From positions 1 to 64,000 of the forward strand of contig CANQVH010000009.1 of NCBI GenBank assembly GCA_947627245.1: a DNA stretch of 64,000 nt, given 5' to 3'. The position numbers and the translations under genes were made by a program. The notes beneath the pieces were generated by a model. That model had not been told where the DNA came from. It was given only the letters and a program-made list of their open reading frames with translations, and searched no databases. Shown here one piece after another: positions 10,872-55,962 of this stretch (position 1 is the stretch's first letter; every line of letters starts with the position of its first letter). The DNA comes from an uncultured Lachnospiraceae bacterium. Its GTDB lineage: Bacteria > Bacillota > Clostridia > Lachnospirales > Lachnospiraceae.

Positions 10872-11792
10872 ATGGAAAACTTAAGAAATGCATCACTGGT
10901 GGAAGGATTGTTGACGGATGATTATGAACTGCGGGTGTACTCCGGAACAGTTCTTGCCAAGAGGTTTGGAAATGAGGTGCTTGAGATGATCGCTGCAGCT
11001 TGGAAAGGAGAAGGGGACTTTCCGCATGCATTTTATAATGACAAAGGCTGCCGCGAAGCATTGGGCAGGGCGGACCATGAATTCCTGTCCGTGTCCGCAA
11101 TCATGGACTTTTACAGAAACGGCCCGGACAAACTGCATGCCTGCGTAAAAAGGCAGATGGTCTTATCGCATCGGGACTATATTTTTTATCTGATGAACCA
11201 TTATTATCCGTCTTTTGTCAGGTCGTACGCAGACGACCTGTATGATTGCGGGGTCATTGGGCTTCTGGCGGCTATGGAAGGGTATAACGGGCAGAATGCA
11301 TTCACGACGTACAGTAAATTTTATATTATCCATGAGATGGCGTCCTTTACTTATTACCTGCAAGGGAACCCTTCCTGTTATTATGCGAAAATTCAAAAAC
11401 AGATCCGCGACGTGATCGGCAATGATATTGATACAGATATCTCCATAAAAGAAATATCAAGGAAGACAGGAATCCGGGAAGATATTGTTGTACGTGAACT
11501 GAGGATGATGCATACGACGGAATTTGTCCGGATCGATGAGTTCCCGGCATTGGTTGAGGGTATTGTTGACGAGCGAGTAAATATTGAGAAAACGGTTGAG
11601 GATAGATTACTGTATGGGATGCTTAAACAGGCTGTGACAAAACTTGAAAGAGAAGATAAAGAACTGCTCATGCTTTATTTCTGGAGAAATTATTCATTCG
11701 GACGCATAGCAAGGGAAAAAGGGGTCTGCTACAGCAGGGTAAAAAAACGATACATGCAAATACTTGACGCTTTGCGCAAAGAGATCATATAA
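10872..11792 (+). CDS. Sigma-70 family RNA polymerase sigma factor
   Basis: The 306-aa product has a region-2-like block about residues 95-155 (YADDLYDCGVIGLLAAMEGY followed by FTTYSKFYIIHEM), matching the core-binding and -10-recognition helices. A helix-turn-helix around 180-205 resembles region 3. A clear region 4 follows at the C-terminus, with SFGRIAREKGVCYSRVKKRY as the recognition helix-turn-helix. The first 90 residues are not typical and may be a regulatory domain. GGGAGG precedes the start. It should direct host RNA polymerase to a private promoter set; the repeated CATATT boxes across this window are the obvious candidates. No anti-sigma gene was recognised next to it. Confidence 0.88.
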   Translation: MENLRNASLVEGLLTDDYELRVYSGTVLAKRFGNEVLEMIAAAWKGEGDFPHAFYNDKGCREALGRADHEFLSVSAIMDFYRNGPDKLHACVKRQMVLSHRDYIFYLMNHYYPSFVRSYADDLYDCGVIGLLAAMEGYNGQNAFTTYSKFYIIHEMASFTYYLQGNPSCYYAKIQKQIRDVIGNDIDTDISIKEISRKTGIREDIVVRELRMMHTTEFVRIDEFPALVEGIVDERVNIEKTVEDRLLYGMLKQAVTKLEREDKELLMLYFWRNYSFGRIAREKGVCYSRVKKRYMQILDALRKEII

Positions 11793-11806
11793 TTCCATTC
11801 ATTAAC

Positions 11807-11891
11807 GCGGTGGCCGGGACTCGAACCCGAAAGCCGCTTGACGCGAACTACGGATTAGCAATCCGCTGCTGTACCATTGAGCCACCACCGC
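11807..11891 (-). tRNA. tRNA-Ser(GCT)
   Basis: The cloverleaf has 7-bp acceptor GCGGTGG/CCACCGC, anticodon loop TTGCTAA and a long class II variable arm. CCA is not encoded. It is the last gene of array 1. Confidence 0.93.
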
Positions 11892-11895
11892 ATAC

Positions 11896-11978
11896 GCCGC
11901 AGGCAGGATTCGAACCTGCATGCCGTCTCCGGCTGCCTGTTTTCAAGACAGGTGCTCCACCAGTTGAGCGACTGCGGC
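11896..11978 (-). tRNA. tRNA-Ser(TGA)
   Basis: Acceptor GCCGCAG/CTGCGGC, anticodon loop CTTGAAA and a long variable arm are all present. Confidence 0.93.
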
Positions 11979-11990
11979 AAATATTTCAGC

Positions 11991-12072
11991 GCCACAGGCA
12001 GGATTCGAACCTGCATGCCGTCTCCGGGTACCTGCTTTCGGGGCAGGCGCTCCACCATTGAGCGACTGTGGC
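11991..12072 (-). tRNA. tRNA-Ser(CGA)
   Basis: The anticodon loop is CCCGAAA, with a long variable arm. It closely resembles the adjacent tRNA-Ser(TGA), suggesting tandem duplication. Its codon TCG is absent from the array's leader peptide. Confidence 0.92.
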
Positions 12073-12077
12073 AAAAC

Positions 12078-12165
12078 GCCGTCTGCACGATTTGAACGTG
12101 CGCACCGCCGAAGCGGTGGTCACCGGTTTCCAGCCGGGCACATTACCATGCTCTGTCAAGACGGC
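12078..12165 (-). tRNA. tRNA-Ser(GGA)
   Basis: The anticodon loop is CTGGAAA with a long variable arm. It completes a full serine set (GCT, TGA, CGA, GGA). Confidence 0.9.
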
Positions 12166-12173
12166 ATATGGAT

Positions 12174-12255
12174 GGGCAGGGAGGGATTTGAACCCCCGAA
12201 GCCTTGCGGCAACAGATTTACAGTCTGCCTACTTTAACCTCTTGCATACCTACCC
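12174..12255 (-). tRNA. tRNA-Tyr(GTA)
   Basis: Acceptor GGGTAGG/CCTGCCC, anticodon loop CTGTAAA and a class II variable arm as expected for bacterial tRNA-Tyr. Confidence 0.93.
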
Positions 12256-12279
12256 GTATAATTGCCCTTGCCGGGCAGC

Positions 12280-12350
12280 CGCCCCTGAGGGACTCGAACC
12301 CTCACTTTATGGCTGAGAACCATACGTCGTAACCTTTAGACTAAGGGGCG
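12280..12350 (-). tRNA. tRNA-Glu(CTC)
   Basis: Acceptor CGCCCCT/AGGGGCG, anticodon loop TTCTCAG and a perfect GAGGG T-stem. Confidence 0.9.
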
Positions 12351-12356
12351 AAAATC

Positions 12357-12426
12357 GTGCATGGGGGAATTGAACCCGCCATCTCCGGATTGAAGGGCCG
12401 GCGTCGTAACCACTTGACTAATGCAC
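12357..12426 (-). tRNA. tRNA-Glu(TTC)
   Basis: The anticodon loop is CCTTCAA. One mismatch occurs in the acceptor stem and one in the anticodon stem, so the gene is slightly degenerate. Confidence 0.85.
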
Positions 12427-12432
12427 GGGAGT

Positions 12433-12505
12433 GGGGCGGGGAGGTGTCGAGCCTCCATCCTGCAGGTTTTCAGCCTGCCGCTCAGACCGCATAAGCTACC
12501 GCTCC
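12433..12505 (-). tRNA. tRNA-Phe(GAA)
   Basis: The anticodon loop CTGAAAA lies in a perfect GCAGG/CCTGC stem. The acceptor has one A-C mismatch. Confidence 0.88.
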
Positions 12506-12517
12506 ATGCTGCACGGG

Positions 12518-12739
12518 CTATGCCGTGCATGTTGCAATGATATCGTCAATGCGCACATTCCAGATGCTGGAAAGCACGACAAGGTTATCTACGGTCGGAA
12601 CAGCCTGCCCGTTCTGCCATTTACATACGGCTGCCGCGGAGATCCCGCATATTCGCTGGATGTCCTTGATTGTCATTCCAGCCCTGATCCTCATGTCCCG
12701 GATATTCTGACCTGTCTTTACCGTATCAATGATCGGCAT
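12518..12739 (-). CDS. Small XRE-type helix-turn-helix protein inside the tRNA array
   Basis: The 73-aa product begins MPIIDTVKTGQNI; AAAGGAG on the minus strand fixes this start, while the longer open frame merely runs through tRNA genes. The sequence matches the Cro/CI fold: a helix with RIRAGMTIKDIQ, then CGISAAAVCKWQNG as the DNA-reading helix. It sits between tRNA-Leu(CAG) and tRNA-Phe on the same transcript. It could regulate the array or the element; a housekeeping role is less likely. Confidence 0.82.
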   Translation of the reverse strand: MPIIDTVKTGQNIRDMRIRAGMTIKDIQRICGISAAAVCKWQNGQAVPTVDNLVVLSSIWNVRIDDIIATCTA

Positions 12740-12772
12740 TTCTATCATCTCCTTTCCAAAATATACTGCAAG

Positions 12773-12852
12773 TCGGCATAGAGAGACTCGAACTCTCATC
12801 CTGTTGGACTGCATCCTGAGTGCAGTGCGTCTGCCATTGCGCCATATGCCGA
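12773..12852 (-). tRNA. tRNA-Leu(CAG)
   Basis: The anticodon loop CTCAGGA is closed by CTGCA/TGCAG. The variable region is about 11 nt, shorter than usual for leucine. The acceptor can extend to 8 bp. Confidence 0.87.
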
Positions 12853-12856
12853 TCGT

Positions 12857-12930
12857 ACAGGAGGTGGGGTTCGAACCCACGAGCCCGGTTTTTTGAAAAC
12901 CAGAGGTCTTCCGGCTGCCTTCACTCCTGC
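12857..12930 (-). tRNA. tRNA-Leu(CAA), short variable loop
   Basis: Acceptor GCAGGAG/CTCCTGT, anticodon loop TTCAAAA and T-stem GTGGG/CCCAC. Only 5 nt (GGCTC) separate the anticodon and T stems, whereas bacterial tRNA-Leu normally has a long class II arm. The D-stem is the 3-bp type of class II tRNAs. Confidence 0.85.
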
Positions 12931-12932
12931 AT

Positions 12933-13005
12933 ACCCCGGATGGGATTCGAACCCATAAATACACGGTCCTTAGCCGTGCCTGTGTGCCAGTTCCAGCACC
13001 GGGGC
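12933..13005 (-). tRNA. tRNA-Leu(AAG), short variable loop
   Basis: A perfect GCCCCGG/CCGGGGT acceptor, anticodon loop CTAAGGA in CACGG/CCGTG, and a 5-nt variable loop (TATTT). An A34 leucine anticodon is unusual in bacteria, and the short loop departs from class II form. It is the first complete tRNA after the leader terminator. Confidence 0.85.
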
Positions 13006-13007
13006 AG

Positions 13008-13033
13008 ATGTACCTGATAGGATTCGAACCTAC
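13008..13033 (-). pseudogene. tRNA 3'-half remnant
   Basis: A T-arm (GTAGG, TTCGAAT, CCTAT) plus a 3' acceptor-like CAGGTAC is present, but no matching 5' half is seen. It lies directly after the terminator U-tract on the minus strand. Either a tRNA was truncated by insertion of the attenuator, or the T-arm is kept as a processing signal. Confidence 0.55.
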
Positions 13034-13069
13034 AAAAAAAACCGCTTTGCGTGGGTTACGCAAAGCGGT
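13034..13069 (-). terminator. Attenuator/terminator between leader ORF and tRNA array 1
   Basis: On the minus strand a perfect 12-bp stem (ACCGCTTTGCGT/ACGCAAAGCGGT, loop AACCC) is followed by eight T. It lies after the 38-aa leader ORF and before every tRNA, so array transcription must pass it. The loop and 3' arm can alternatively pair with leader bases 13130-13144 (GCGTGG with CCACGC, extended by UUU/AAA across a bulge), an antiterminator geometry. Confidence 0.88.
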
Positions 13070-13099
13070 GTATGCAGTATATTCTTGATTAGGAGGATC

Positions 13100-13216
13100 C
13101 TAGACCTGCAGCCTTACACTTTCCGTTCTATCCACGCGAAATAATCCCTTGCACTCAAGATACAGGGACTCTGATTCGTATGAATAAAACAAACTGGTAA
13201 TCGTTCTGCAGTTCAT
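13100..13216 (-). CDS. 38-aa leader peptide of tRNA array 1 (putative attenuation sensor)
   Basis: AAAGGAG lies a few bases before the ATG. Residues 8-21 read SLFYSYESESLYLE, 14 consecutive residues drawn only from Ser, Leu, Phe, Tyr and Glu, the five amino acids of the downstream array. The run includes AGT (read by Ser-GCT), TTG (Leu-CAA), TTT (Phe), TAT and TAC (Tyr), TCA (Ser-TGA), GAA and GAG (the two Glu tRNAs), TCC (Ser-GGA), CTG (Leu-CAG) and CTT (Leu-AAG). Only TCG for Ser-CGA is absent. The segment that can form an antiterminator follows at codons 25-29. The stop is 31 nt before the terminator stem. The layout matches amino-acid-operon leader peptides, but here the regulated genes are tRNAs. 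Confidence 0.82.
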   Translation of the reverse strand: MNCRTITSLFYSYESESLYLECKGLFRVDRTESVRLQV

Positions 13217-13245
13217 AGCCGTTCTCCTTTCTTAATCCTGTACCT

Positions 13246-13274
13246 ATTGTATCAGTCCTTTTCCAGATTTGCAA
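13246..13274 (-). promoter_or_regulatory. Housekeeping-type promoter of tRNA array 1
   Basis: On the minus strand TTGCAA and TACAAT are separated by exactly 17 bp, 30 nt upstream of the leader peptide start. It lacks the CATATT box, so the array should be read by the host's main sigma factor. Confidence 0.75.
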
Positions 13275-16379: not shown

Positions 16380-18989
16380 ATGAAGGCTAAAATAAGGAAC
16401 TTTACAGGTTTTCTGGCAGACCGCATCGGTATGGGCCAAGAACAGATGAAGGTTGAATACGACAGACGGAAAGAAATCCTTGATGCCGTATATGTTGAAA
16501 AAGGGTGCAAGGACAGCGAAATAGGCAATGTCCTGAATGAGTGGCTGGCTGAGCACAGCCCGCTTTATGGCTGTATCGGGGAGCAGTACCGGGTAAACTC
16601 GGATAATCTCCAGACAGCGCTCCAGGTTGCTTCCTACGTCGAAGAATACGGACTGAAGTGGGATGTCATGGATATCTGCCTCGGGTACGCACTCGTGTCA
16701 TACGGCAGATGTGTTACCATTGCGATGGAGGAGATGCTGTATGAGATCGAAGAGCCGGCGGATTACTCAAATGTCAGTATCTCCCAGCTCAGGAATCCTT
16801 CCGATTCCCTGCCGGCATTTTTGCCTGCCGGGCTTGATGATGAAACATTATCCATGGCGACAAAGAAGGAAGACGATCTCCAGACCCAGCTTGCAGCAAT
16901 GGAAGCAAGGGAAAAGGATATTGAAAGCGGGGCAGCAGAAGAGCTGTCTTCGCTTATGGAAGAAATCCGCAAAAAAGAACTCGAACTGGAAGCACGTAAA
17001 AAATCCATGATGGCTGAGCTGCAGAGAGAAAAGGACGCAATGCTTGAAAAAATCAACCAGCTCAAAAAGCAGATCTATGTCATGGAAGCGGAGATCTACC
17101 GCATCCAGTGCTTTGAGGGCAAAACAGTGGAACTCCTGAAACTCCGAAACGGCCGTAATGCTCCGGATGACACACCGTTTGTGCTGAACCAGAAGCTGTT
17201 GTATCTGGATGAGGATCTTTCAAGACTCCTGTCTGTATACAATGAAGATATTATGAATAACTACAGGATCTTCGAGGAAGCGGCGAAATACAGTGACGAA
17301 CTTGTTGACGCGTTCTGTCACCAAGAGAAATGCATCACTTTCTTCAAGGTATCCAAGGATGCAAAGGAGTTCGGTTACAACGACAAGGGTATGGTCGCTG
17401 CATATTCCATGCTCCACGGGCAGAAGATCGGGTTTCTGATCCGGAACGGAGAAAACCTATACTGCGGGTGGATGGAAGAAGAATGGAAGAAAGATTCCGC
17501 GCTTACTTTCTCCGAAGATTTTTTCTTGCGTTCGGGGAGCTCTTACGTGTCTGCCGATGGCACCCAGACGGCAAAATCCACGCCGGTAGGGGAACGTGTC
17601 AGCCGCATGTTTGCGCTGTCAATCCTCCAAGGACTCATCTCTAGGGGAGACATCCTTAACTTCCCGGAGCCGGTAAGCATTATGGAACAGTCGCGCTACA
17701 TCGTGTTCAATTACGCGGACATGTGGTTGGATGACAACCGGTACGGTGACTTTGAGACCATTGTCAGGAACCTGCACCATTACAATAAGGTTGGGGACGA
17801 TATCCTCGTCGTCCAGAGGCTGTTTTCGGACTCAAAAGGCGAGAGGGGCATCGGTTACGCAAACCGTACGCATGACTGCTCCGTCCCATCCGGGCTGAAC
17901 CGGATCAACCTTATCGAAGATGGACGGTATTATGTATCCGCAGAAAAGACATGGTCAGAATGTGGTGCCCGTTCCAATTACGAGCTGGAGAAAGATGAGT
18001 TCATGAACCTGACCTACTTCAACTCACTTTGGATGGAGTATTATATCCAGACCAAAAAGATCGGCAGGTTCGGGATCATGTATGTAAGCGGAAGCGGACT
18101 GTCCGGAGGGCATTATGACAAGATGAGCTATTCCTACCTAATCCCGTTTTTCCGGAAGGCGTTGTTCTTCCTGCGTGACAGGGAAGGAAAAGAGAAGAAA
18201 ATGATACTTCCTTACTACCCGGAGCTCGAAGCTGTACCGGAATGGCAGGTCAAGCTGTCAAACTGGAAGATCATGAATAAGGTGCGCCAGATCACGGATT
18301 ATCAGGCAAAACGCTTTGCGGCTTATCTGGAAAAAGGTGATTTCAAAGAAGCGTCACATTTGTTTGAGAAGAAATGGGATCCTCCGAAGGTGGAAGACCT
18401 CGATAAGAGGTATAGCAGTATCGAACTCCGTGACACCGGTCTGTTCCGAAACCATATGGATCTGCACAATTACAGCGGGTATGACCATCAGCATCCCCAA
18501 TACGGATGGAGTTCCAGAGGGGATAAATATTCCTTCTGTAATGAAAAGGATTTTGAGGATGAGGAACTCGTAAAGAAGACCTGCGAGGAGAACTACCAAA
18601 AGCTTCTCTGTATCCAGGAAGAAGTGATGAAAATGGTACAGGAACAGAACATCACAGACAAGGATATCAGCCGGATGTTCCATGACATCGTTTTTTCTTC
18701 CAAGAGGGACAGGGAAGATGATGTGCTGAAAAGTGCCCTGCGCTCCTTCTGTAACCTGATTGACCTGCACCAGCCGATCCCCTCATATGATGACATGAGG
18801 AAGGACCGGTATCTGGACAGTGCCTTTGATGAATGCATCATGCAGTCTAAGATACGGCATTGGATCCCAAAAGCAGACGGGGTTTATCCACTGATCTATT
18901 ACCGCACGATCCAGGACAGTGTCCTGTATACGGTTAACTGGGGGATTAACTGGGTTCTTGAGGAACGGTACAAAGTGGAAGCCAAATAA
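16380..18989 (+). CDS. Large hypothetical protein with coiled coil (869 aa)
   Basis: AAAGGAG precedes the ATG. Residues about 155-245 form a strongly charged coiled coil (heptads rich in Glu, Lys, Leu). The N-terminal 130 residues are helical, and the remaining 600 residues look like a globular, aromatic-rich enzyme or structural domain with no Walker motif, signal peptide or membrane segment. It stands alone between a promoter-like element and a terminator. The length and single-gene unit suggest an important element function, but no family was recognised. Confidence 0.65.
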   Translation: MKAKIRNFTGFLADRIGMGQEQMKVEYDRRKEILDAVYVEKGCKDSEIGNVLNEWLAEHSPLYGCIGEQYRVNSDNLQTALQVASYVEEYGLKWDVMDICLGYALVSYGRCVTIAMEEMLYEIEEPADYSNVSISQLRNPSDSLPAFLPAGLDDETLSMATKKEDDLQTQLAAMEAREKDIESGAAEELSSLMEEIRKKELELEARKKSMMAELQREKDAMLEKINQLKKQIYVMEAEIYRIQCFEGKTVELLKLRNGRNAPDDTPFVLNQKLLYLDEDLSRLLSVYNEDIMNNYRIFEEAAKYSDELVDAFCHQEKCITFFKVSKDAKEFGYNDKGMVAAYSMLHGQKIGFLIRNGENLYCGWMEEEWKKDSALTFSEDFFLRSGSSYVSADGTQTAKSTPVGERVSRMFALSILQGLISRGDILNFPEPVSIMEQSRYIVFNYADMWLDDNRYGDFETIVRNLHHYNKVGDDILVVQRLFSDSKGERGIGYANRTHDCSVPSGLNRINLIEDGRYYVSAEKTWSECGARSNYELEKDEFMNLTYFNSLWMEYYIQTKKIGRFGIMYVSGSGLSGGHYDKMSYSYLIPFFRKALFFLRDREGKEKKMILPYYPELEAVPEWQVKLSNWKIMNKVRQITDYQAKRFAAYLEKGDFKEASHLFEKKWDPPKVEDLDKRYSSIELRDTGLFRNHMDLHNYSGYDHQHPQYGWSSRGDKYSFCNEKDFEDEELVKKTCEENYQKLLCIQEEVMKMVQEQNITDKDISRMFHDIVFSSKRDREDDVLKSALRSFCNLIDLHQPIPSYDDMRKDRYLDSAFDECIMQSKIRHWIPKADGVYPLIYYRTIQDSVLYTVNWGINWVLEERYKVEAK

Positions 18990-28086: not shown

Positions 28087-28118
28087 AAAGGGCTGTGCTT
28101 TTAGGGCATGGCCCTTTT
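28087..28118 (+). terminator. Rho-independent terminator
   Basis: AAGGGCTGTGC pairs with GCATGGCCCTT (with wobbles) and is followed by T. Confidence 0.75.
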
Positions 28119-28140
28119 TACATGAGGTATTGCTGGAAAA

Positions 28141-28148
28141 TACATATT
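28141..28148 (+). promoter_or_regulatory. TACATATT promoter-like box
   Basis: The box is 47 nt before the MoxR ATPase start; the 30-nt upstream position holds the previous terminator rather than TATAAAAA. Confidence 0.55.
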
Positions 28149-28187
28149 GTAATTGAAATTTATGTATTGAAAGAAGGAGGAAACAAC

Positions 28188-29900
28188 ATGGTAGAAAGCT
28201 TTAAAATAAAGGACCAGTTATTTAACCACAGGGGTATACTGGATCATTTTACGGGGCTGAAGGTAACTACACAGTCCCCGAAGGGTGTTGCCTGCAGCTT
28301 GAATAGCACATCCAATCAGGTCTCAAAGATCTCCATTGTAGGGGTAACGATAGACATGATTATGGATGGTAGAATAGCTGTGGCGAGCGTCGACGACGGT
28401 AATGCGTATGTCGAATACCATACTTCTACTGGTGAGGTGGTATCTCTGCTTGTAATGGCACCAAATAAAGGCGAATTCCAGGTAATTGCCAGAAAATTCA
28501 GTTCATTACTGAAAAACATGGAACATGGAACCAAGATTTTTGTGGTGTCCGTGATTGCCGCGATCCTGTATTGCCCGGAAATGCGGAACATCATGCGCAG
28601 CCAGAATCCTGAGCTGAATGCTGTTTTCACTGAGCTTGATTCGTACTTTGATGCTGCTCAGGACTATAAGGCAATGCATCTCATGGATTCAAACCTGTTT
28701 TTAACCTGTGACATAATGTATTATGGCATTTTTAAACAGGGAACAGAAGTAGAGATCAATGCCGAAGACGAAGGCGTGTTCGATGCCCAGATGCAGCGTT
28801 TCCTACAGAATAATTCGATGAGGCATATTGCGTCGACAAGGGAGTTGGAGCGTTATACCATACCTGAGCACGAAGAGGCTACCCAAAAAACAAATCAGAA
28901 TTCCCTGTTTACAGAGCCGCTTGCAGATTTCTTTGAGCGGTGTAAAAGAGGTGAGTTCTTGATCAGGTATCCGTGGCCGGAAATCAGGAAAAACATGATC
29001 GTGCCTCTTTCGTTTTTGGAATCTTTCTTCCCGACAGAGTCCTTCCGGCTCATGCTTTTGAGCGTGTGGTACCAGATCAGGGAAGTGCAGAAGCGCATGG
29101 ATGAAGTCTCGAAGAAGTATCCCGGAAAGAAACTGGCAGAGTTGGTGCAGGAGGGAGCCTATGACGAAGTGATGGGCAAGAACCCGATCAACATTAAGGT
29201 GATGGGCAAGCCCGGCACAGGAAAAACAACGGTTATTGAGGCTGTACTTGCGTCTCTCGGTTACCCGAAAGGTCTGATCAGTTGTAAGGACCGTATGGAA
29301 GAGGACGACATTGAAGGGCTGAATAAGTTCGTCAATGGCACTGTCCTTAACATCCCGACGAAAGCCGGACAGTTGCACTCAGATGGCGGGGCAATACTCC
29401 TTGAGGAGTTCAACCTTCCGGATCCCGGTATCCTGCAGGGGGCTCTCGGGCAAGCACTCGCATACCCGTTCATCCTCAAAGAAGATGGTTACAAAGAGAA
29501 GCGTCGGCATCCGATGACGATCTACTTTGCAACTATGAATATCGGAACGGCCGGGACAAAGCCAATGAATGAAGCATTGTCTTCAAGGTTTCCAGAGGGA
29601 TATGTCATTGAGGATGTGCCCGAGGCTGAGTTTATTTCTATCCTCGTGGCATCTGGATATGAAAAGTCCGACTGTCGTAAGGTTTATCGTGTTTACACGC
29701 AGATTTTGAATTATTTGAGAGAGTACCATGAGGAGCTTAGCCTGTCGATCACGCTCAGGCACTGTCTGAACGCGCTGGACAAATTGAAGATCGGGTTTAC
29801 GGAGAAACAGGCGTATGAGAATACGTTCCTTTCGCAGTTGTACTCCAGTGATCCGGAGGTAGCAAACGATATAAGGGAAACTCTTCAGGTATTGATGTAA
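28188..29900 (+). CDS. MoxR-family AAA+ ATPase
   Basis: GGAGG supports the start. The first 300 residues are a unique N-terminal region. The AAA+ core has Walker A GKPGTGKTT near residue 339, Walker B GAILLEEFNL near 402, sensor-1 FATMN, and an arginine-finger region EALSSRFPEG. MoxR ATPases act as remodelling chaperones, almost always with a von Willebrand A partner, which is exactly the next gene 13 nt downstream. The complex may insert metal, dissociate assemblies or activate a client protein of the element. Confidence 0.87.
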   Translation: MVESFKIKDQLFNHRGILDHFTGLKVTTQSPKGVACSLNSTSNQVSKISIVGVTIDMIMDGRIAVASVDDGNAYVEYHTSTGEVVSLLVMAPNKGEFQVIARKFSSLLKNMEHGTKIFVVSVIAAILYCPEMRNIMRSQNPELNAVFTELDSYFDAAQDYKAMHLMDSNLFLTCDIMYYGIFKQGTEVEINAEDEGVFDAQMQRFLQNNSMRHIASTRELERYTIPEHEEATQKTNQNSLFTEPLADFFERCKRGEFLIRYPWPEIRKNMIVPLSFLESFFPTESFRLMLLSVWYQIREVQKRMDEVSKKYPGKKLAELVQEGAYDEVMGKNPINIKVMGKPGTGKTTVIEAVLASLGYPKGLISCKDRMEEDDIEGLNKFVNGTVLNIPTKAGQLHSDGGAILLEEFNLPDPGILQGALGQALAYPFILKEDGYKEKRRHPMTIYFATMNIGTAGTKPMNEALSSRFPEGYVIEDVPEAEFISILVASGYEKSDCRKVYRVYTQILNYLREYHEELSLSITLRHCLNALDKLKIGFTEKQAYENTFLSQLYSSDPEVANDIRETLQVLM

Positions 29901-29913
29901 AGGAGGATCAGCT

Positions 29914-32076
29914 ATGATGAATAGTGCCAACTATATCCGGGCAATGGGTATGACAGGGACAGCGCTTACCGGGCGCCCCTGTCATGTAAAGCAGATGGAT
30001 ATAAGTGGACAGATTGCGTATCACATCCGGCAAGGCAGAGAAGATGTCATTGCGATAGACTTCGAGCACGATTTTGGCTGTGAGGAAGATGAAACTGCAA
30101 CGCTCCTGTACGGGCTGTTCACGCATGAAATCATGCATGCAATCCGAACGGACTCCAGCTATAAGGAACAGCGTCTTGCAGAATATCCTATGGTGGAACG
30201 ATCCCCACGTAAAGATATATGGAACATTGTTGAAGACCCAGCTATTGAGTATTTTGCTAAATGGGAGGTGTCTGATACTTTATTCCGATGCCTGAAAAAA
30301 ACGATCTTGTTTTTGTATAACGAGGCTCCGGAAATCCAGGATTGCGGTGATGATGCATGGTTGCAGTTTATTGCATCCCTTGTTATGTTTGGGGATGTAG
30401 GTGCTTTGAAAGGGAGATTCACTTTTCCAGAGGCACTGGAGTGCTTTAAAAAATGCGCGCCAATCATGCTGCGGGCTATTGAGGAACCGGATGCACGCAA
30501 GAGATTTGAACTGTCTCAGGAAATTTTCGAAATAGCAAAGCCATTGTGGGTTGAGCACTACGATAACAACTTAGACGCGTTTAGTTCTGTTAGTGATATG
30601 CTCTCTGAACTTGGTGTGACTGAGTCGGGCGGTATCGGAAGCCCTGTATCAAATGATGCCTGCAATAATAAGGATACTGTTGAAGATGACGCTATGCGTA
30701 GAAGGAAACAGACACTGAAGATTTTTGAGGAGTCTGAGCCAGATTCCATGGACGGAAATCCAGGACAGGATAAGCCAGATGTTGGCGGAGCAGGCAGTGC
30801 TGATGGAGCTGAGGACACCGGAACAAACACCGGTTCTGAAAACTCTAACGGCAGCGGCGGCAACGTATCCTATGGAGAAGCAGATGGTGCCACTACAGGA
30901 ACGGACAGCAATGCTGAAAAGAAAAAAGGCAGTGTTGTGGGGAGTGATAGCGACGGCTCTGGGGATGTTGACTCGGACACTAAGACTACAGGCTCCAAAG
31001 CTGACAGCGATGGAAAAACTGGCTCTTGTAATAAACAAGGCTCAAAGAGTAGTCCGGACTCCGTACTTGATGTTATCAACGGAAAACTGGAAGAACTCTT
31101 GAAACAGTTTTCAGATGAAATCGACATAAAAGCAGAAATCGATGATTCTTTAATACAGGCGATCAAGAGGATGGTAGCGTCTGCTGGCCGTGAAAAGACC
31201 AATACTCAGAGAGCAACGCGCCGGGATATGGATATCGATGACCTCCATTTGGTAGTAAAATCTCCCTACTACAAAAACTCATCAATTAGAGTCCTGCAGA
31301 AGTCAGAGTCATATGGGGACGAATATGATGAGCTTTGTTTGAAAAGACACAGTGATATCGTGAACTTTCGGGCACAGCTTAAGAAAATCCTTCAGAATAA
31401 GTATTCGGATAAGGAGTATTCAACCAGCGGAAAGATCAATGTTGACCGCATGTGTGGACGGAAGCTGACTGCCCGTGTGTTTGAAAAGAGAAAGAAACCA
31501 GATGATAAATCGGATCTTGCTATTGTGCTTATGGTTGACCAATCAGGGTCCATGCGTAAAAGTATGGGTGCGGTAAAGGAAGTTTGTACAATTATCATGG
31601 AGGCCCTTAGCAAATTTGATATTCCAGTCAAGTTGGTCGGCTTTACTACAGCCGATAGGAACCTTGATGCGGAATACTATTATTACGGGAAATGGGCGAA
31701 TGACCGCAATACACGCATGATGATACCCGGTATTTCGGCGGGAGGAGGAACATTCCTCGGACATGCCATAAGGTACGGCGGAGAACTCTTGAAGAAAAGG
31801 CCGGAAAAGAAAAAACTATTTGTTATAATAACCGACGCGGAACCTCAATTCTATAAGTATAAATCGGTCGACGACGCGTACAGTGATTGCAGGTATGCGG
31901 TACAGGATATCAGTAAATTTGCAGAAGTACTCGGACTCGGGATCTATAACTCCGATGACAGCATGTCTGTAAAAGCTTTTCGGTTCATTTTCGGAAAAAA
32001 TTGTTTATCTGTGAGCAAATCATCTGCCATTGTTACAGAGCTTCCCAAAATTATTGGGAAACTTCTTAAATCTTAA
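29914..32076 (+). CDS. vWA-domain protein with HExxH metallopeptidase-like N-terminus
   Basis: AAGGAGG precedes the ATG. Residues 71-75 are HEIMH, a zinc-metalloprotease signature, in a domain like those of DUF2201/CobT-like proteins. A Ser/Gly/Asp-rich low-complexity linker spans roughly residues 230-385. The C-terminal vWA domain has an intact MIDAS start (MVDQSGSM, near residue 541) and a later ITDAEPQF acidic motif. With the MoxR gene it forms a classical ATPase/vWA pair; the protease-like domain suggests the client may be cleaved or metal-loaded. No signal peptide, so cytosolic. A terminator follows. Confidence 0.82.
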   Translation: MMNSANYIRAMGMTGTALTGRPCHVKQMDISGQIAYHIRQGREDVIAIDFEHDFGCEEDETATLLYGLFTHEIMHAIRTDSSYKEQRLAEYPMVERSPRKDIWNIVEDPAIEYFAKWEVSDTLFRCLKKTILFLYNEAPEIQDCGDDAWLQFIASLVMFGDVGALKGRFTFPEALECFKKCAPIMLRAIEEPDARKRFELSQEIFEIAKPLWVEHYDNNLDAFSSVSDMLSELGVTESGGIGSPVSNDACNNKDTVEDDAMRRRKQTLKIFEESEPDSMDGNPGQDKPDVGGAGSADGAEDTGTNTGSENSNGSGGNVSYGEADGATTGTDSNAEKKKGSVVGSDSDGSGDVDSDTKTTGSKADSDGKTGSCNKQGSKSSPDSVLDVINGKLEELLKQFSDEIDIKAEIDDSLIQAIKRMVASAGREKTNTQRATRRDMDIDDLHLVVKSPYYKNSSIRVLQKSESYGDEYDELCLKRHSDIVNFRAQLKKILQNKYSDKEYSTSGKINVDRMCGRKLTARVFEKRKKPDDKSDLAIVLMVDQSGSMRKSMGAVKEVCTIIMEALSKFDIPVKLVGFTTADRNLDAEYYYYGKWANDRNTRMMIPGISAGGGTFLGHAIRYGGELLKKRPEKKKLFVIITDAEPQFYKYKSVDDAYSDCRYAVQDISKFAEVLGLGIYNSDDSMSVKAFRFIFGKNCLSVSKSSAIVTELPKIIGKLLKS

Positions 32077-53934: not shown

Positions 53935-53968
53935 GCATACCTCACTATACAAAAAGTGTGCTTGAGAA

Positions 53969-54040
53969 GCCGAAACCCGGGCTCGAACCGGGAACCTTCG
54001 GGTTACAAATCCGATGCTCTGCCAATTGAGCTATTCCGGC
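53969..54040 (-). tRNA. tRNA-Thr(TGT)
   Basis: Acceptor GCCGGAA/TTTCGGC, anticodon loop TTTGTAA and a perfect CCCGG T-stem. Last tRNA of cluster 2, now separated from the others by a TnpB element. Confidence 0.93.
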
Positions 54041-54284: not shown

Positions 54285-55412
54285 ATGGCGAACCGGGCAA
54301 TCGTATACCGCATCTACCCTAATAAAGGGCAGGAGACGCTGCTGCAGAAGACCTTCGGCTGCGTGCGCTTCGTGTACAACCATATGCTCTCCCTCCAGGA
54401 GGAGCGGTACAAGGCAGGCGAAAAATACCTGCCAAGGACGGCAGCAAACAATTACTGCAACCAGGAACTTAAGGAAGAATACCCGTTCCTGCGCGAGCCG
54501 GACAAGTTCGCGCTCACGAACGCCGTCTTCCACATGGACGCCGCCTACCAGGCCATGTTCGGACACCGCGGGAAGCATCCGAAGTACAAGAGCAAGCATT
54601 ACTCGAAAAAGTCCTATACGACGAACATCTCAAACGGGAACATTGCCGTCGGTGACGGACACGTGAAGCTCCCGAAGCTCGGACGTGTGAAGGCAGCGAC
54701 CCACCGCATGGCGCCGGAGGGCTGGGCACTGAAGTCCGCCACCGTCTCGCAGGGGAAGGACGGCACCTACCAGGTATCCGTGCTCTATGAGTATGAAAGC
54801 ACAGTCCTGCCCATGGGGATCTCCGGGGATAACACCATCGGCCTCGACTTCAAGATGTCCGGGCTGTACGTGGCTTCCGATGGCACCCAGGCCGACATGC
54901 CGGGTTACTACCGCAGGGCACAGAAGCGCCTTGCCCGCGAACAGCGGAGGCTCTCCCGGAAGCAGAAGGACTCAAAGAACCGCAATAAACAGCGCATACG
55001 CCTTGCGCGTGTCCATGCCCATGTGGCAAACCAGAGGAAGGACTTCCTGCACAAGCAGTCTGCTGCGATAGCCAAACAGTACACCTGTGTCTGTGTGGAG
55101 GACCTTGACCTGAAGGCCATGTCGGACAGCGGGTTTTACAACGGGAAGTCTGTCCATGACGACGCCTACGGCATGTTCCTTGGGATGCTCCAGTACAAGC
55201 TGGAGGTAAACGGCGGCATGCTCGTAAAGGTGGGCCGGTGGTACCCCAGCAGCCAGATGTGCGGGCACTGCGGGTATAAGAACTCGGAACTCAGGGACCT
55301 GTCCATACGGAAATGGGCCTGCCCGGTATGCGGCACGGTACACGACCGCGATGTAAACGCGGCTGAAAACATAAAACATGAGGGGCTCCGCCTGCTCAGG
55401 GAGGCGGCCTGA
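54285..55412 (+). CDS. tnpB: TnpB, RNA-guided RuvC nuclease
   Basis: AGGAGG precedes the ATG. The 375-aa protein has the full RuvC-like core: Asp in TIGLDFKMSG (near residue 188), Glu in CVCVEDLDLKAM (near 270) and the final Asp in HDRDVNAAENI, with a Cys4 zinc finger between (CGHC and CPVC). TnpB cleaves DNA guided by the element's right-end RNA and helps the transposon persist. All catalytic residues appear intact, so this is not a nuclease-dead TldR-like repressor. Confidence 0.93.
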   Translation: MANRAIVYRIYPNKGQETLLQKTFGCVRFVYNHMLSLQEERYKAGEKYLPRTAANNYCNQELKEEYPFLREPDKFALTNAVFHMDAAYQAMFGHRGKHPKYKSKHYSKKSYTTNISNGNIAVGDGHVKLPKLGRVKAATHRMAPEGWALKSATVSQGKDGTYQVSVLYEYESTVLPMGISGDNTIGLDFKMSGLYVASDGTQADMPGYYRRAQKRLAREQRRLSRKQKDSKNRNKQRIRLARVHAHVANQRKDFLHKQSAAIAKQYTCVCVEDLDLKAMSDSGFYNGKSVHDDAYGMFLGMLQYKLEVNGGMLVKVGRWYPSSQMCGHCGYKNSELRDLSIRKWACPVCGTVHDRDVNAAENIKHEGLRLLREAA

Positions 55413-55561
55413 ACCTATAGATCCGGTAGGGCGGGAACCGCCCGAACCTGGCATCAGCCATACGCCTGTAGAGGCTGTGGGAAAACTGCCCGTGTGGGTG
55501 TGACAATAACCGCGGCCGTTGAAGCAGGAAGCTCCGCCTTCTACAAGGCGGGGTAGTTCAC
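55413..55561 (+). ncRNA. Right-end omegaRNA (reRNA) scaffold of TnpB
   Basis: The GC-rich stretch after tnpB ends in hairpin CTCCGCCTT/AAGGCGGGG and TAGTTCAC, the usual scaffold end. The guide would be the bases just outside, from 55562, which are part of tRNA-Pro. So this TnpB would target tRNA-Pro sequence. Confidence 0.75.
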
Positions 55562-55615
55562 CCGACGGCCTCCTGCTCCCGAAGCAGGCGCTCTACCAAA
55601 CTGAGCTAACTCCGT
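55562..55615 (-). pseudogene. tRNA-Pro(CGG), 5' part, split by the TnpB element
   Basis: Acceptor 5' strand ACGGAGT, D-arm and anticodon loop TTCGGGA in CCTGC/GCAGG are present up to the T-stem 5' strand GTCGG, where the element begins. The 3' part is missing at this side. Confidence 0.85.
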
Positions 55616-55619
55616 ATAA

Positions 55620-55691
55620 GTGCGTGAAGGGATTCGAACCTTCACCCGCTGCTTGGAAGGCAGCCATGCTTGCCGTTGACACCACACGCAC
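55620..55691 (-). tRNA. tRNA-Gly(TCC)
   Basis: Acceptor GTGCGTG/CACGCAC, anticodon loop CTTCCAA in GCTGC/GCAGC, good T-arm. Confidence 0.92.
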
Positions 55692-55962
55692 ATACACCCT
55701 TACGGGCGAGCTGGAATGGTGGGGGGGGGGTCGAACCCACAACCCTCCGGTTAACAGCCGGATGCTCTACCTTTGAGCTACACTCCAATAAAAAAGATAC
55801 CCGTTGCCTTCTGGTTACAGGTACCTGGATAAGCGGATATGCCATGAGTCTTATCTCATGTGCCCCGGTACCTGCTGCCCCAGTGCATGCTGTCGCCGGC
55901 GTTCCCGTTGTGAACGCCTTGCCGTTTGCTATGAGACTGGTCATGCGAAAAATAGTAGTCAT
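55642..55962 (-). CDS. Leader ORF of tRNA cluster 2 (putative attenuation sensor)
   Basis: AGGAAAGGA precedes ATG 55962. Codons 18-34 read TTGTPATACTGAAGTGA: 17 residues of only Thr, Gly, Ala, Pro and one Cys, with AAC (Asn) at codon 13. Downstream tRNAs are Asn, Gly, Pro and Thr; the single Pro codon is CCG, matching anticodon CGG, and ACA and GGA/GGG match the Thr and Gly tRNAs. The frame has no stop before the terminator and formally continues through tRNA-Asn to 55642, so the true end is uncertain. The only functional part is probably 55790-55962. Ala and Cys tRNAs are not found nearby. Confidence 0.5.
   Translation of the reverse strand: MTTIFRMTSLIANGKAFTTGTPATACTGAAGTGAHEIRLMAYPLIQVPVTRRQRVSFLLECSSKVEHPAVNRRVVGSTPPPPFQLARKGVCACGVNGKHGCLPSSG
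55712..55787 (-). tRNA. tRNA-Asn(GTT)
   Basis: Anticodon loop CTGTTAA in TCCGG/CCGGA. The 3' T-stem side contains a run of ten C (G on the plus strand), which disturbs the T-stem and might be a sequencing error. Confidence 0.82.
55790..55826 (-). terminator. Attenuator/terminator before tRNA cluster 2
   Basis: On the minus strand AGGTACCTGTAACC pairs with GGCAACGGGTATCT (12 of 14 pairs, AGAA loop), followed by TTTTTT, ending 2 nt before tRNA-Asn. Its 5' arm GGTACCTG can instead pair perfectly with CAGGTACC in the leader codon run (plus 55867-55874), an antiterminator arrangement. Confidence 0.75.

Follow-up and report, generated by a model that had tools for sequence, protein, structure and literature searches.

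Array 1 is a compact cluster of tRNA genes on the minus strand of a 64,000-nucleotide stretch of DNA (hereafter the window) from an uncultured Lachnospiraceae bacterium. The window is part of contig C9, which spans 73,279 bases and comes from a genome bin. Read from 13274 to 11805, the locus comprises a promoter-like site, a ribosome-binding site (RBS), a 38-codon leader, a terminator, the 3' half of a tRNA, three tRNA-Leu genes, a helix-turn-helix (HTH) gene, and tRNAs for Phe, Glu (two), Tyr and Ser (four). ARAGORN called 11 tRNAs within 1.2 kb, and all 11 were also matched by Rfam family RF00005. These calls, together with the leader open reading frame (ORF) and the terminator, confirm the order of promoter, leader, terminator, 11 tRNAs and HTH gene given in an initial annotation of the locus, with a promoter that is weak by itself.

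The leader region precedes the tRNAs as a self-contained cassette. The promoter-like site (13246..13274; TTGCAA-17-TACAAT with an extended TG) reaches 9 of 12 in consensus score. The RBS AAAGGAG (13224..13230), read in the sequence and scored in a composition-blind survey, lies 7 bases before the ATG of the leader ORF MNCRTITSLFYSYESESLYLECKGLFRVDRTESVRLQV (13100..13216), which was the top candidate by RBS and ATG with composition ignored. Codons 8-21 form the putative sensor run SLFYSYESESLYLE (13154..13195), and codons 31-34 hold a candidate antiterminator arm ACGGAAAGTG (13117..13126) that pairs with the 5' arm of the terminator. The terminator is an intrinsic hairpin of 12 pairs, 7 of them GC (13041..13069; minimum free energy −19.4), followed by T7 at 13040-13034. 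Leader RNA and terminator together fold at −75.2 kcal/mol (z −6.0 against shuffles). Abutting the terminator is an orphan tRNA 3' half comprising T arm and acceptor strand (13009..13033), identified by eye and without an ARAGORN call, which, with the odd tRNA at the equivalent position of pRUMAL01 unit 1 (below), suggests that the cassette took the place of the missing 5' half.

Downstream follow tRNA-Leu(aag) (12931..13006), tRNA-Leu(caa) (12855..12930) and tRNA-Leu(cag) (12772..12851), and then the HTH gene (12518..12739), which encodes a 73-aa Cro/C1-type protein (Pfam HTH_3) whose relatives elsewhere lie within or next to tRNA arrays. The remaining genes are tRNA-Phe(gaa) (12431..12505), tRNA-Glu(ttc) (12355..12427), tRNA-Glu(ctc) (12278..12350), tRNA-Tyr(gta) (12173..12255), tRNA-Ser(gga) (12076..12166), tRNA-Ser(cga) (11989..12072), tRNA-Ser(tga) (11894..11979) and tRNA-Ser(gct) (11805..11892).

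The leader is built from the amino acids that the array's tRNAs carry. Residues 8-21 are 14 consecutive residues drawn from L, F, E, Y and S, the five amino acids of the array, as the initial annotation had claimed. No other frame in the window had a run longer than 9 for the same five amino acids (2,216 start-to-stop stretches of 15-60 codons, every start codon counted on both strands), and shuffling the leader's residues reached a 14-run in 3 of 200,000 trials. The accompanying claim about codons also held, in that all 14 run codons can be read by array anticodons and 10 of the 11 anticodons are represented. This match is barely informative, because the array covers all Ser, Glu, Phe and Tyr codons and four of the six Leu codons; just the three Leu codons of the run had any chance to mismatch.

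The decisive relative was reached through another gene of the window. An AAA gene (28095-29900) and a VWA gene (29914-32076) form a pair that matches the Ruminococcus albus megaplasmid pRUMAL01 at 29–31%, and the VWA protein led to this plasmid (NC_014824.1, R. albus 7). Its tRNA array at ~99.7-103.1 kb comprises three units, each with a promoter-like site, a leader and a terminator, the terminators lying at ~99.9, 101.4 and 102.5 kb. Behind leader 1 (...SYLYSESLLSLVLESEE...) come two Leu tRNAs and one Glu tRNA; leader 2 (...DDYQCFFSFSFDWQD...) is followed by Asp, Gln, Cys, Phe, Gln and Trp tRNAs, and leader 3 (...SYSYSYSS...) by a Tyr and four Ser tRNAs. HTH genes 38% and 37% identical to the window's are found in two units, while the Tyr/Ser unit has none annotated. 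Unit 1 also contains an odd, uncalled tRNA at the position equivalent to the window's tRNA 3' half.

We surveyed leader-terminator-tRNA units across relatives gathered with an HTH alignment as bait, from Ruminococcus (including pRUMAL01), Lachnospiraceae and other Clostridia. Named-genome loci were the best 80 of 139 HTH relatives in genome contigs, and a further 60 wider stretches (L226-L285) were taken from genomes belonging to the same family and order as the window. The survey script scored a terminator hairpin with T tract, an upstream ORF by start codon and RBS, and downstream tRNAs; leader composition was never used, and outside the window the presence of a terminator was the survey's own selection rule. 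An initial survey yielded 82 units in 69 of 109 loci, of which 3 with ORFs longer than 55 aa were removed before its test. The uniform survey yielded 109 units in 89 of 143 loci. Loci L087-L112 belong to the initial survey only: six were replaced by wider fetches (L280-L285) and the rest were omitted from the uniform survey, including L089, whose unit is nearly identical to that of L088.

Across these units, leader composition follows the downstream tRNA set. Statistics were computed on all 109 units and on 44 representatives with leaders at most 50% identical, false leaders included. In the 44 leaders the cognate fraction was 0.290 against 0.188 (sd 0.010) with permuted tRNA sets (z 10.0), and the longest cognate run averaged 4.46 against 2.20 (z 10.9), neither being reached in 10,000 permutations. 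Each of the 17 amino acids for which some representative has a tRNA was enriched in leaders whose unit has that tRNA (17/17). Six of these results come from few leaders, a single one for G and for P and two each for D, I, M and N; false leaders supply the one for G, one of the two for N and one of the two for M. A stricter set of 24 units, with three or more tRNAs and no leaders above 40% identity, gave z 7.7 for fraction and 8.7 for run, again 0/10,000 each, and cognate residues were clustered within its leaders (6.25 against 3.32 shuffled, 0/2,000). Where a locus holds several units, the leader's pairing with its own set exceeded the swapped pairing in 23 of 26 pairs, with 2 ties and a single loss that involves a false leader. 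The initial annotation had named leaders that fail to track their tRNA sets as the outcome that would count against it, and homologous leaders do track.

Individual leaders illustrate the correspondence. RQHEQEKERCWHRQERQF stands ahead of Trp, Gln, Lys, Glu, Phe, Cys, Arg and His tRNAs, NKQFNNKQFMQFCKNQKCF ahead of Gln, Cys, Phe, Lys and Asn tRNAs, and LSSSYVLYLSLLLY ahead of Tyr, four Leu and two Ser tRNAs. The number of amino acids named by a leader is five in the window and eight in L247.

The same survey applied to other tRNA genes found next to nothing. Twenty-nine chromosomal tRNA loci of the relatives (155 tRNAs, flanks of up to 1.5 kb) gave 0 units, and 7 other mobile tRNA loci (113 tRNAs) gave 2, neither convincing; one of these is a frame of 60 codons with a GTG start, followed by tRNAs that cover most amino acids. 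The leader-terminator design is therefore not general to tRNA genes or arrays in these samples. Megaplasmids of Bacillales (L287, L288 and L290, from Rossellomorea, Aneurinibacillus and Paenibacillus) carry 20, 26 and 44 tRNAs in ~10 kb, an array style that differs and in which we found no convincing leaders.

We then compared leader codons with anticodons. Strict codon:anticodon matching across leaders was 0.694 against 0.657 permuted (0/2,000), in a sample of 896 codons drawn from 107 different leader DNAs, many of which are close relatives. For Ser, AGY stood at 0.72 with Ser-gct and 0.32 without, and TCA at 0.43 with Ser-tga and 0.13 without. Lys and Gln codons lean the same way as Ser, their smaller classes holding 12 and 8 codons. 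Since the codon signal is clear for Ser alone, the tracking appears to operate at the level of amino acids.

Comparison of relatives indicates that the leaders are probably translated as proteins. In 15 leaders of the same length, of a Glu/His/Tyr/Ser type belonging to a different leader group from the window's, the synonymous share of single-base codon differences was 0.60 in frame and 0.06 and 0.22 in the shifted frames, consistent with conservation as protein.

Across the family, the leaders also show the predicted elements of a switch. Codons ~28-36 follow directly on the run and can pair with the 5' arm of the terminator; this pairing reached z < −2 in 21 of 44 representatives, against 2 of 44 for the loop and 3' arm. 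For the arm-swap and stall analyses three representatives (the ferredoxin-like leader of L150, MCRQ... of L126 and a window frame, MCVF...) were removed, leaving 41. Leaders paired with their own terminator arms at −16.25 kcal/mol and with swapped arms at −13.25, a mean gain of 3.0 not reached in 10,000 permutations; judged from sequence, this advantage is covariation between lineages with different sequences. In a stall model where the ribosome masks RNA as far as 13 bases beyond the point at which the A-site codon starts, with the polymerase just past the loop, the terminator arm was sequestered at 0.67 for stalls at cognate codons, 0.56 at non-cognate codons, 0.31 at the stop codon and 0.48 when untranslated. 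For the window the model gave 0.6-0.7 along the run, a drop to below 0.1 at codons 31-32, and 0.35 with the ribosome at the stop; the position of its arm agrees with the relatives and with the stall model.

Combining these observations, we propose, with a probability of roughly 85%, that array 1 is controlled by a ribosome-mediated transcription attenuator that senses shortage of the tRNAs encoded downstream. A ribosome would translate the leader close behind RNA polymerase. With all tRNAs named by codons 8-21 available, it would proceed towards the stop and cover the antiterminator arm, so that the terminator would form and keep the tRNA genes off. Scarcity of any named tRNA would make the ribosome stall within the run, leaving the codons just downstream free to pair with the terminator 5' arm; with the terminator blocked, polymerase would read on into the HTH and tRNA genes until supply was restored. 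Because one leader names several amino acids, it would act as an OR gate. Comparison across relatives supports leader tracking, leader coding, alternative pairing and specificity to this kind of array, and from these we infer leader translation, stalling and read-through. At the family level, the features that mark trp and his attenuators in sequence are present.

Some relatives place a similar leader before an RNA-repair gene. Of the 60 wider loci, 31 contain the RNA ligase gene rtcB. In 22 of these 31 the gene lies 50-103 bases ahead of the HTH gene, and in 27 it has a leader and terminator upstream, with or without tRNAs between; one of the 27 leaders, that of L271, has just 12 codons and looks false. 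A stricter rerun (frames of 20-60 codons within a 450-base span) found leaders before 27 of 30 rtcB genes against 7 of 113 control ORFs from the same loci, and with a 1,200-base span before 26 of 29 against 13 of 93. The rtcB leaders have the stall profile of the family and the same antiterminator covariation (0/10,000, n=27). RtcB itself has no match in the window's genome bin. The initial annotation had cast the circuit as one for tRNA supply; tracking is in keeping with this, and the rtcB loci indicate that it is only part of the story.

Several loci carry related arrangements. The segment L322:1238-7139 is possibly an RNA-repair island. Here an rtcB confirmed by Pfam RtcB lies upstream of two leader-controlled tRNA arrays, together with a WYL-domain gene, a DUF2828/DUF7788 (VWA-like) gene and two genes for RlaP, of the polymerase-beta family of RNA repair. 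L237, L276 and L278 have a leader, a terminator and an HTH gene with no detectable tRNA. The L237 leader is rich in Asn, His and Tyr, and that of L276 is almost identical to the leader of L272, which retains Tyr, Cys, Gln and Ser tRNAs.

A number of results weigh against the attenuator proposal. No unit was found in 54 of the 143 loci of the uniform survey, the 44 representatives hold at least three false leaders, and related arrays are only partly independent of one another. Ser alone shows a clear covariation of codons with anticodons: for Glu, GAG stood at 0.29 both with and without the matching anticodon, and Leu codons showed no clear trend. At the window itself, the region contains 3 promoter-like sites against 2.4 expected in shuffles, so that the promoter, with its ordinary score, is weak alone; the window's own arm pairing stands at z 0.2 against shuffles and ranks 21 of 41 among swapped arms. 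After normalisation the own arm was best or second best in just 10 of 41 units. The stall model gave more sequestration at cognate than at non-cognate codons in 39 of 41 units, in part an effect of position, since the arm lies downstream of the cognate codons, and its off state is not clean, since few units fell below 0.2 at the stop (12 of 41) or untranslated (4 of 41). In rtcB operons with tRNAs (n=13), tracking by fraction was non-significant, with 1,668 of 10,000 permutations reaching it, and tracking by run was modest (259 of 10,000); among the 80 Ruminococcus-type loci, a partial rtcB occurs in one, L176. The attenuation claimed initially thus stands on leader tracking, family-level antiterminator covariation and coding, and gains nothing from codon matching beyond Ser or from the window's own antiterminator. 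The checks that had been suggested divide likewise: comparison of leader codons with anticodons succeeded for Ser and for amino acids and failed for Glu and Leu, and folding of alternatives succeeded for the family, where the pairing covaries, and for the window gave a pairing no stronger than shuffles.

How the leaders came to mirror the tRNA sets could be explained otherwise. Coincidence in a single window, with a chance ORF behind the run, draws on the ordinary promoter score and on a window antiterminator no better than shuffles; given the rarity of the run among frames and shuffles and the within-locus pairs, we regard its probability as negligible, and homologous leaders that track other tRNA sets refute it. 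Strong folding of the leader ORF RNAs, with z < −2 in 27 of 41 units and z −5.2 in the window, raises the idea that composition is a by-product of a long leader hairpin whose codons are not for reading. That composition follows the tRNA set across unrelated leaders, and that synonymous bias falls in the right frame, makes this very improbable. The attenuator might also mainly serve the HTH genes, or rtcB in relatives, with tRNAs as inserted passengers whose supply is not its purpose. Such a role would suit loci that have a leader, a terminator and rtcB or HTH without detectable tRNA, such as L237, and the weak tracking in rtcB operons; it sits poorly with the close tracking where arrays exist, including the pRUMAL01 Tyr/Ser unit with no annotated HTH gene, and we consider it improbable.

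What the attenuator responds to is a separate matter. A sensor of amino-acid starvation, in which low charging raises tRNA output as a way to compete for amino acids in short supply, independently of any damage, would use the codon logic of trp and his leaders, and a leader cannot distinguish an uncharged from a missing tRNA. Against it, added tRNA would be useless if the amino acid were missing, the mixed and unrelated amino acids fit no single biosynthetic pathway, and the repair genes rtcB and RlaP neighbour the relatives; we think it rather unlikely. For the attenuator that we propose, we lean slightly towards loss or damage of tRNA, for example by cleavage, as the natural trigger rather than amino-acid hunger, because extra tRNA does not cure hunger and relatives carry rtcB behind similar leaders.

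The design both resembles and departs from known regulators. Leader-peptide attenuators control the amino-acid operons trp, his, leu and ilv. In bacilli a His leader precedes hisZ/hisS* (PMC2965389), and the array leaders share with all of these a short ORF rich in regulatory codons and, as predicted for the family, an antiterminator/terminator alternative with output by read-through. Here, in contrast, the output is tRNA genes with an HTH gene, or rtcB in relatives, instead of one pathway's enzymes; several unrelated amino acids are named per leader; and the sensed molecule would be the operon's own product. T-box riboswitches are Firmicutes leaders that sense tRNA charging and control termination without a leader peptide. 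The array leaders are likewise Firmicutes leaders that would link tRNA charging to termination, but with a leader peptide and no T-box match in the window, where RF00005 alone matched at Rfam gathering scores. Proteobacterial Rtc RNA-repair operons are under the activator RtcR, with RtcB expressed upon tRNA damage. The relatives likewise associate RtcB ligase with probable tRNA damage, but their apparent sensor is a translated leader with a terminator instead of an activator protein.

Arrays of tRNA genes on mobile DNA are documented. Mycobacterial tRNA arrays carry an XRE regulator in ~87% of one group (PMC5966550), arrays occur on Mycobacterium avium linear plasmids (PMC12803027) and tRNA clusters in viruses (PMC6409571), and phage tRNAs are proposed to evade anticodon nucleases (PMC10264068). 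These reports describe dense tRNA genes on mobile DNA, sometimes a small HTH gene and a proposed anti-defence role; the window's array is similarly dense, divergent from host tRNAs and on DNA that is probably mobile. The word "leader" is absent from PMC5966550, PMC12803027 and PMC6409571, and "attenuat-" from PMC12803027 and PMC6409571. Among the matches listed in open-licence literature, for a query that did not include rtcB, no report described leader-peptide control of tRNA arrays.

The window is likely part of a large, plasmid-like element, because its AAA/VWA pair matches pRUMAL01 and an 869-aa protein (16380-18989) matches pELF-type plasmids; its host is assigned by binning alone, and the gene pair common to pRUMAL01 suggests that the DNA of array 1 is mobile. 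The 12 window array tRNAs that could be compared are 55-73% identical to the best same-amino-acid host tRNA of the bin, and the 10 of array 1 with a counterpart are 55-71% identical; the Tyr and Asn array tRNAs have no counterpart in the bin. The 869-aa protein, without a Pfam match, has relatives in 44 Enterococcus faecium plasmid records, at ~25% identity among the matches listed and of pELF type where named. Among 397 genomes of the family it has relatives in its own genome alone, and none in genome contigs; two of the E. faecium plasmid records, scanned whole, contain no tRNA.

Other searches returned little. BLAST of the array gave tRNA-sized matches alone, in 52 of 98 relatives, 7 plasmids and 20 phages, and the HTH alignment found no confirmed relative in viral contigs. 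The AAA protein matched 3 plasmid records and an SbcC-like protein one phage record at 26%, neither matching viral contigs. Convergent with array 1, a protein at 10872-11792 has a weak match to sigma-70 region 4. Elsewhere in the bin it has three relatives at 32-34% identity and one weaker match, none with an array beside it. It has no match in viral contigs or plasmids. Among 392 genomes of the order, 281 including its own have a match at E ≤ 0.001, those outside its bin being weak and none better than 2e-9.

A second array in the window, also on the minus strand, has a comparable layout. Its leader frame (MTTIFRMTSLIANGKAFTTGTPATACTGAAGTGAHEIRLMAYPLIQ...) and its terminator (55826-55795) span 55795..55962, and the frame is rich in Thr, Gly, Ala, Pro and Asn, with residues 12-34 reading ANGKAFTTGTPATACTGAAGTGA. 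Downstream lie tRNA-Asn(gtt) (55716..55787), tRNA-Gly(tcc) (55619..55691) and a weak tRNA (55547..55615; 28.9 bits against a cut-off of 29) whose anticodon loop, read by eye, is CGG (Pro). A TnpB (OrfB_IS605) gene (54285-55412) splits the array, and tRNA-Thr(tgt) (53968..54040) lies beyond it. The stall profile is high on the run and lower after it, and also high (0.78) when untranslated. The composition-blind survey chose the false MCVF... frame here. This copy may be decaying, because the leader frame has no in-frame stop ahead of the terminator, no Ala tRNA was found, and the array is interrupted.

Taken together, these comparisons leave us evenly poised on a broader view, that Clostridia widely possess an inducible response for repairing and replacing tRNAs, sensed through a programmable leader peptide, of which mobile elements, including the window's, carry a replacement-only form as counter-defence. 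The leader's residues would list the watched tRNAs; loss of any one, for instance to cleavage by an anticodon nuclease during conflict with phages or plasmids, would open the operon, and the output would be RtcB ligase, the HTH protein and fresh, divergent tRNAs. If true, leader-peptide attenuation would reach beyond the enzymes of amino-acid metabolism to the supply and repair of tRNA, one short peptide would take multiple inputs, and the long-standing puzzle of why tRNA arrays occur on mobile elements and in phages would become directly testable. The leaders would then be a written record of threatened tRNAs, and reading a leader would predict which tRNAs are attacked.

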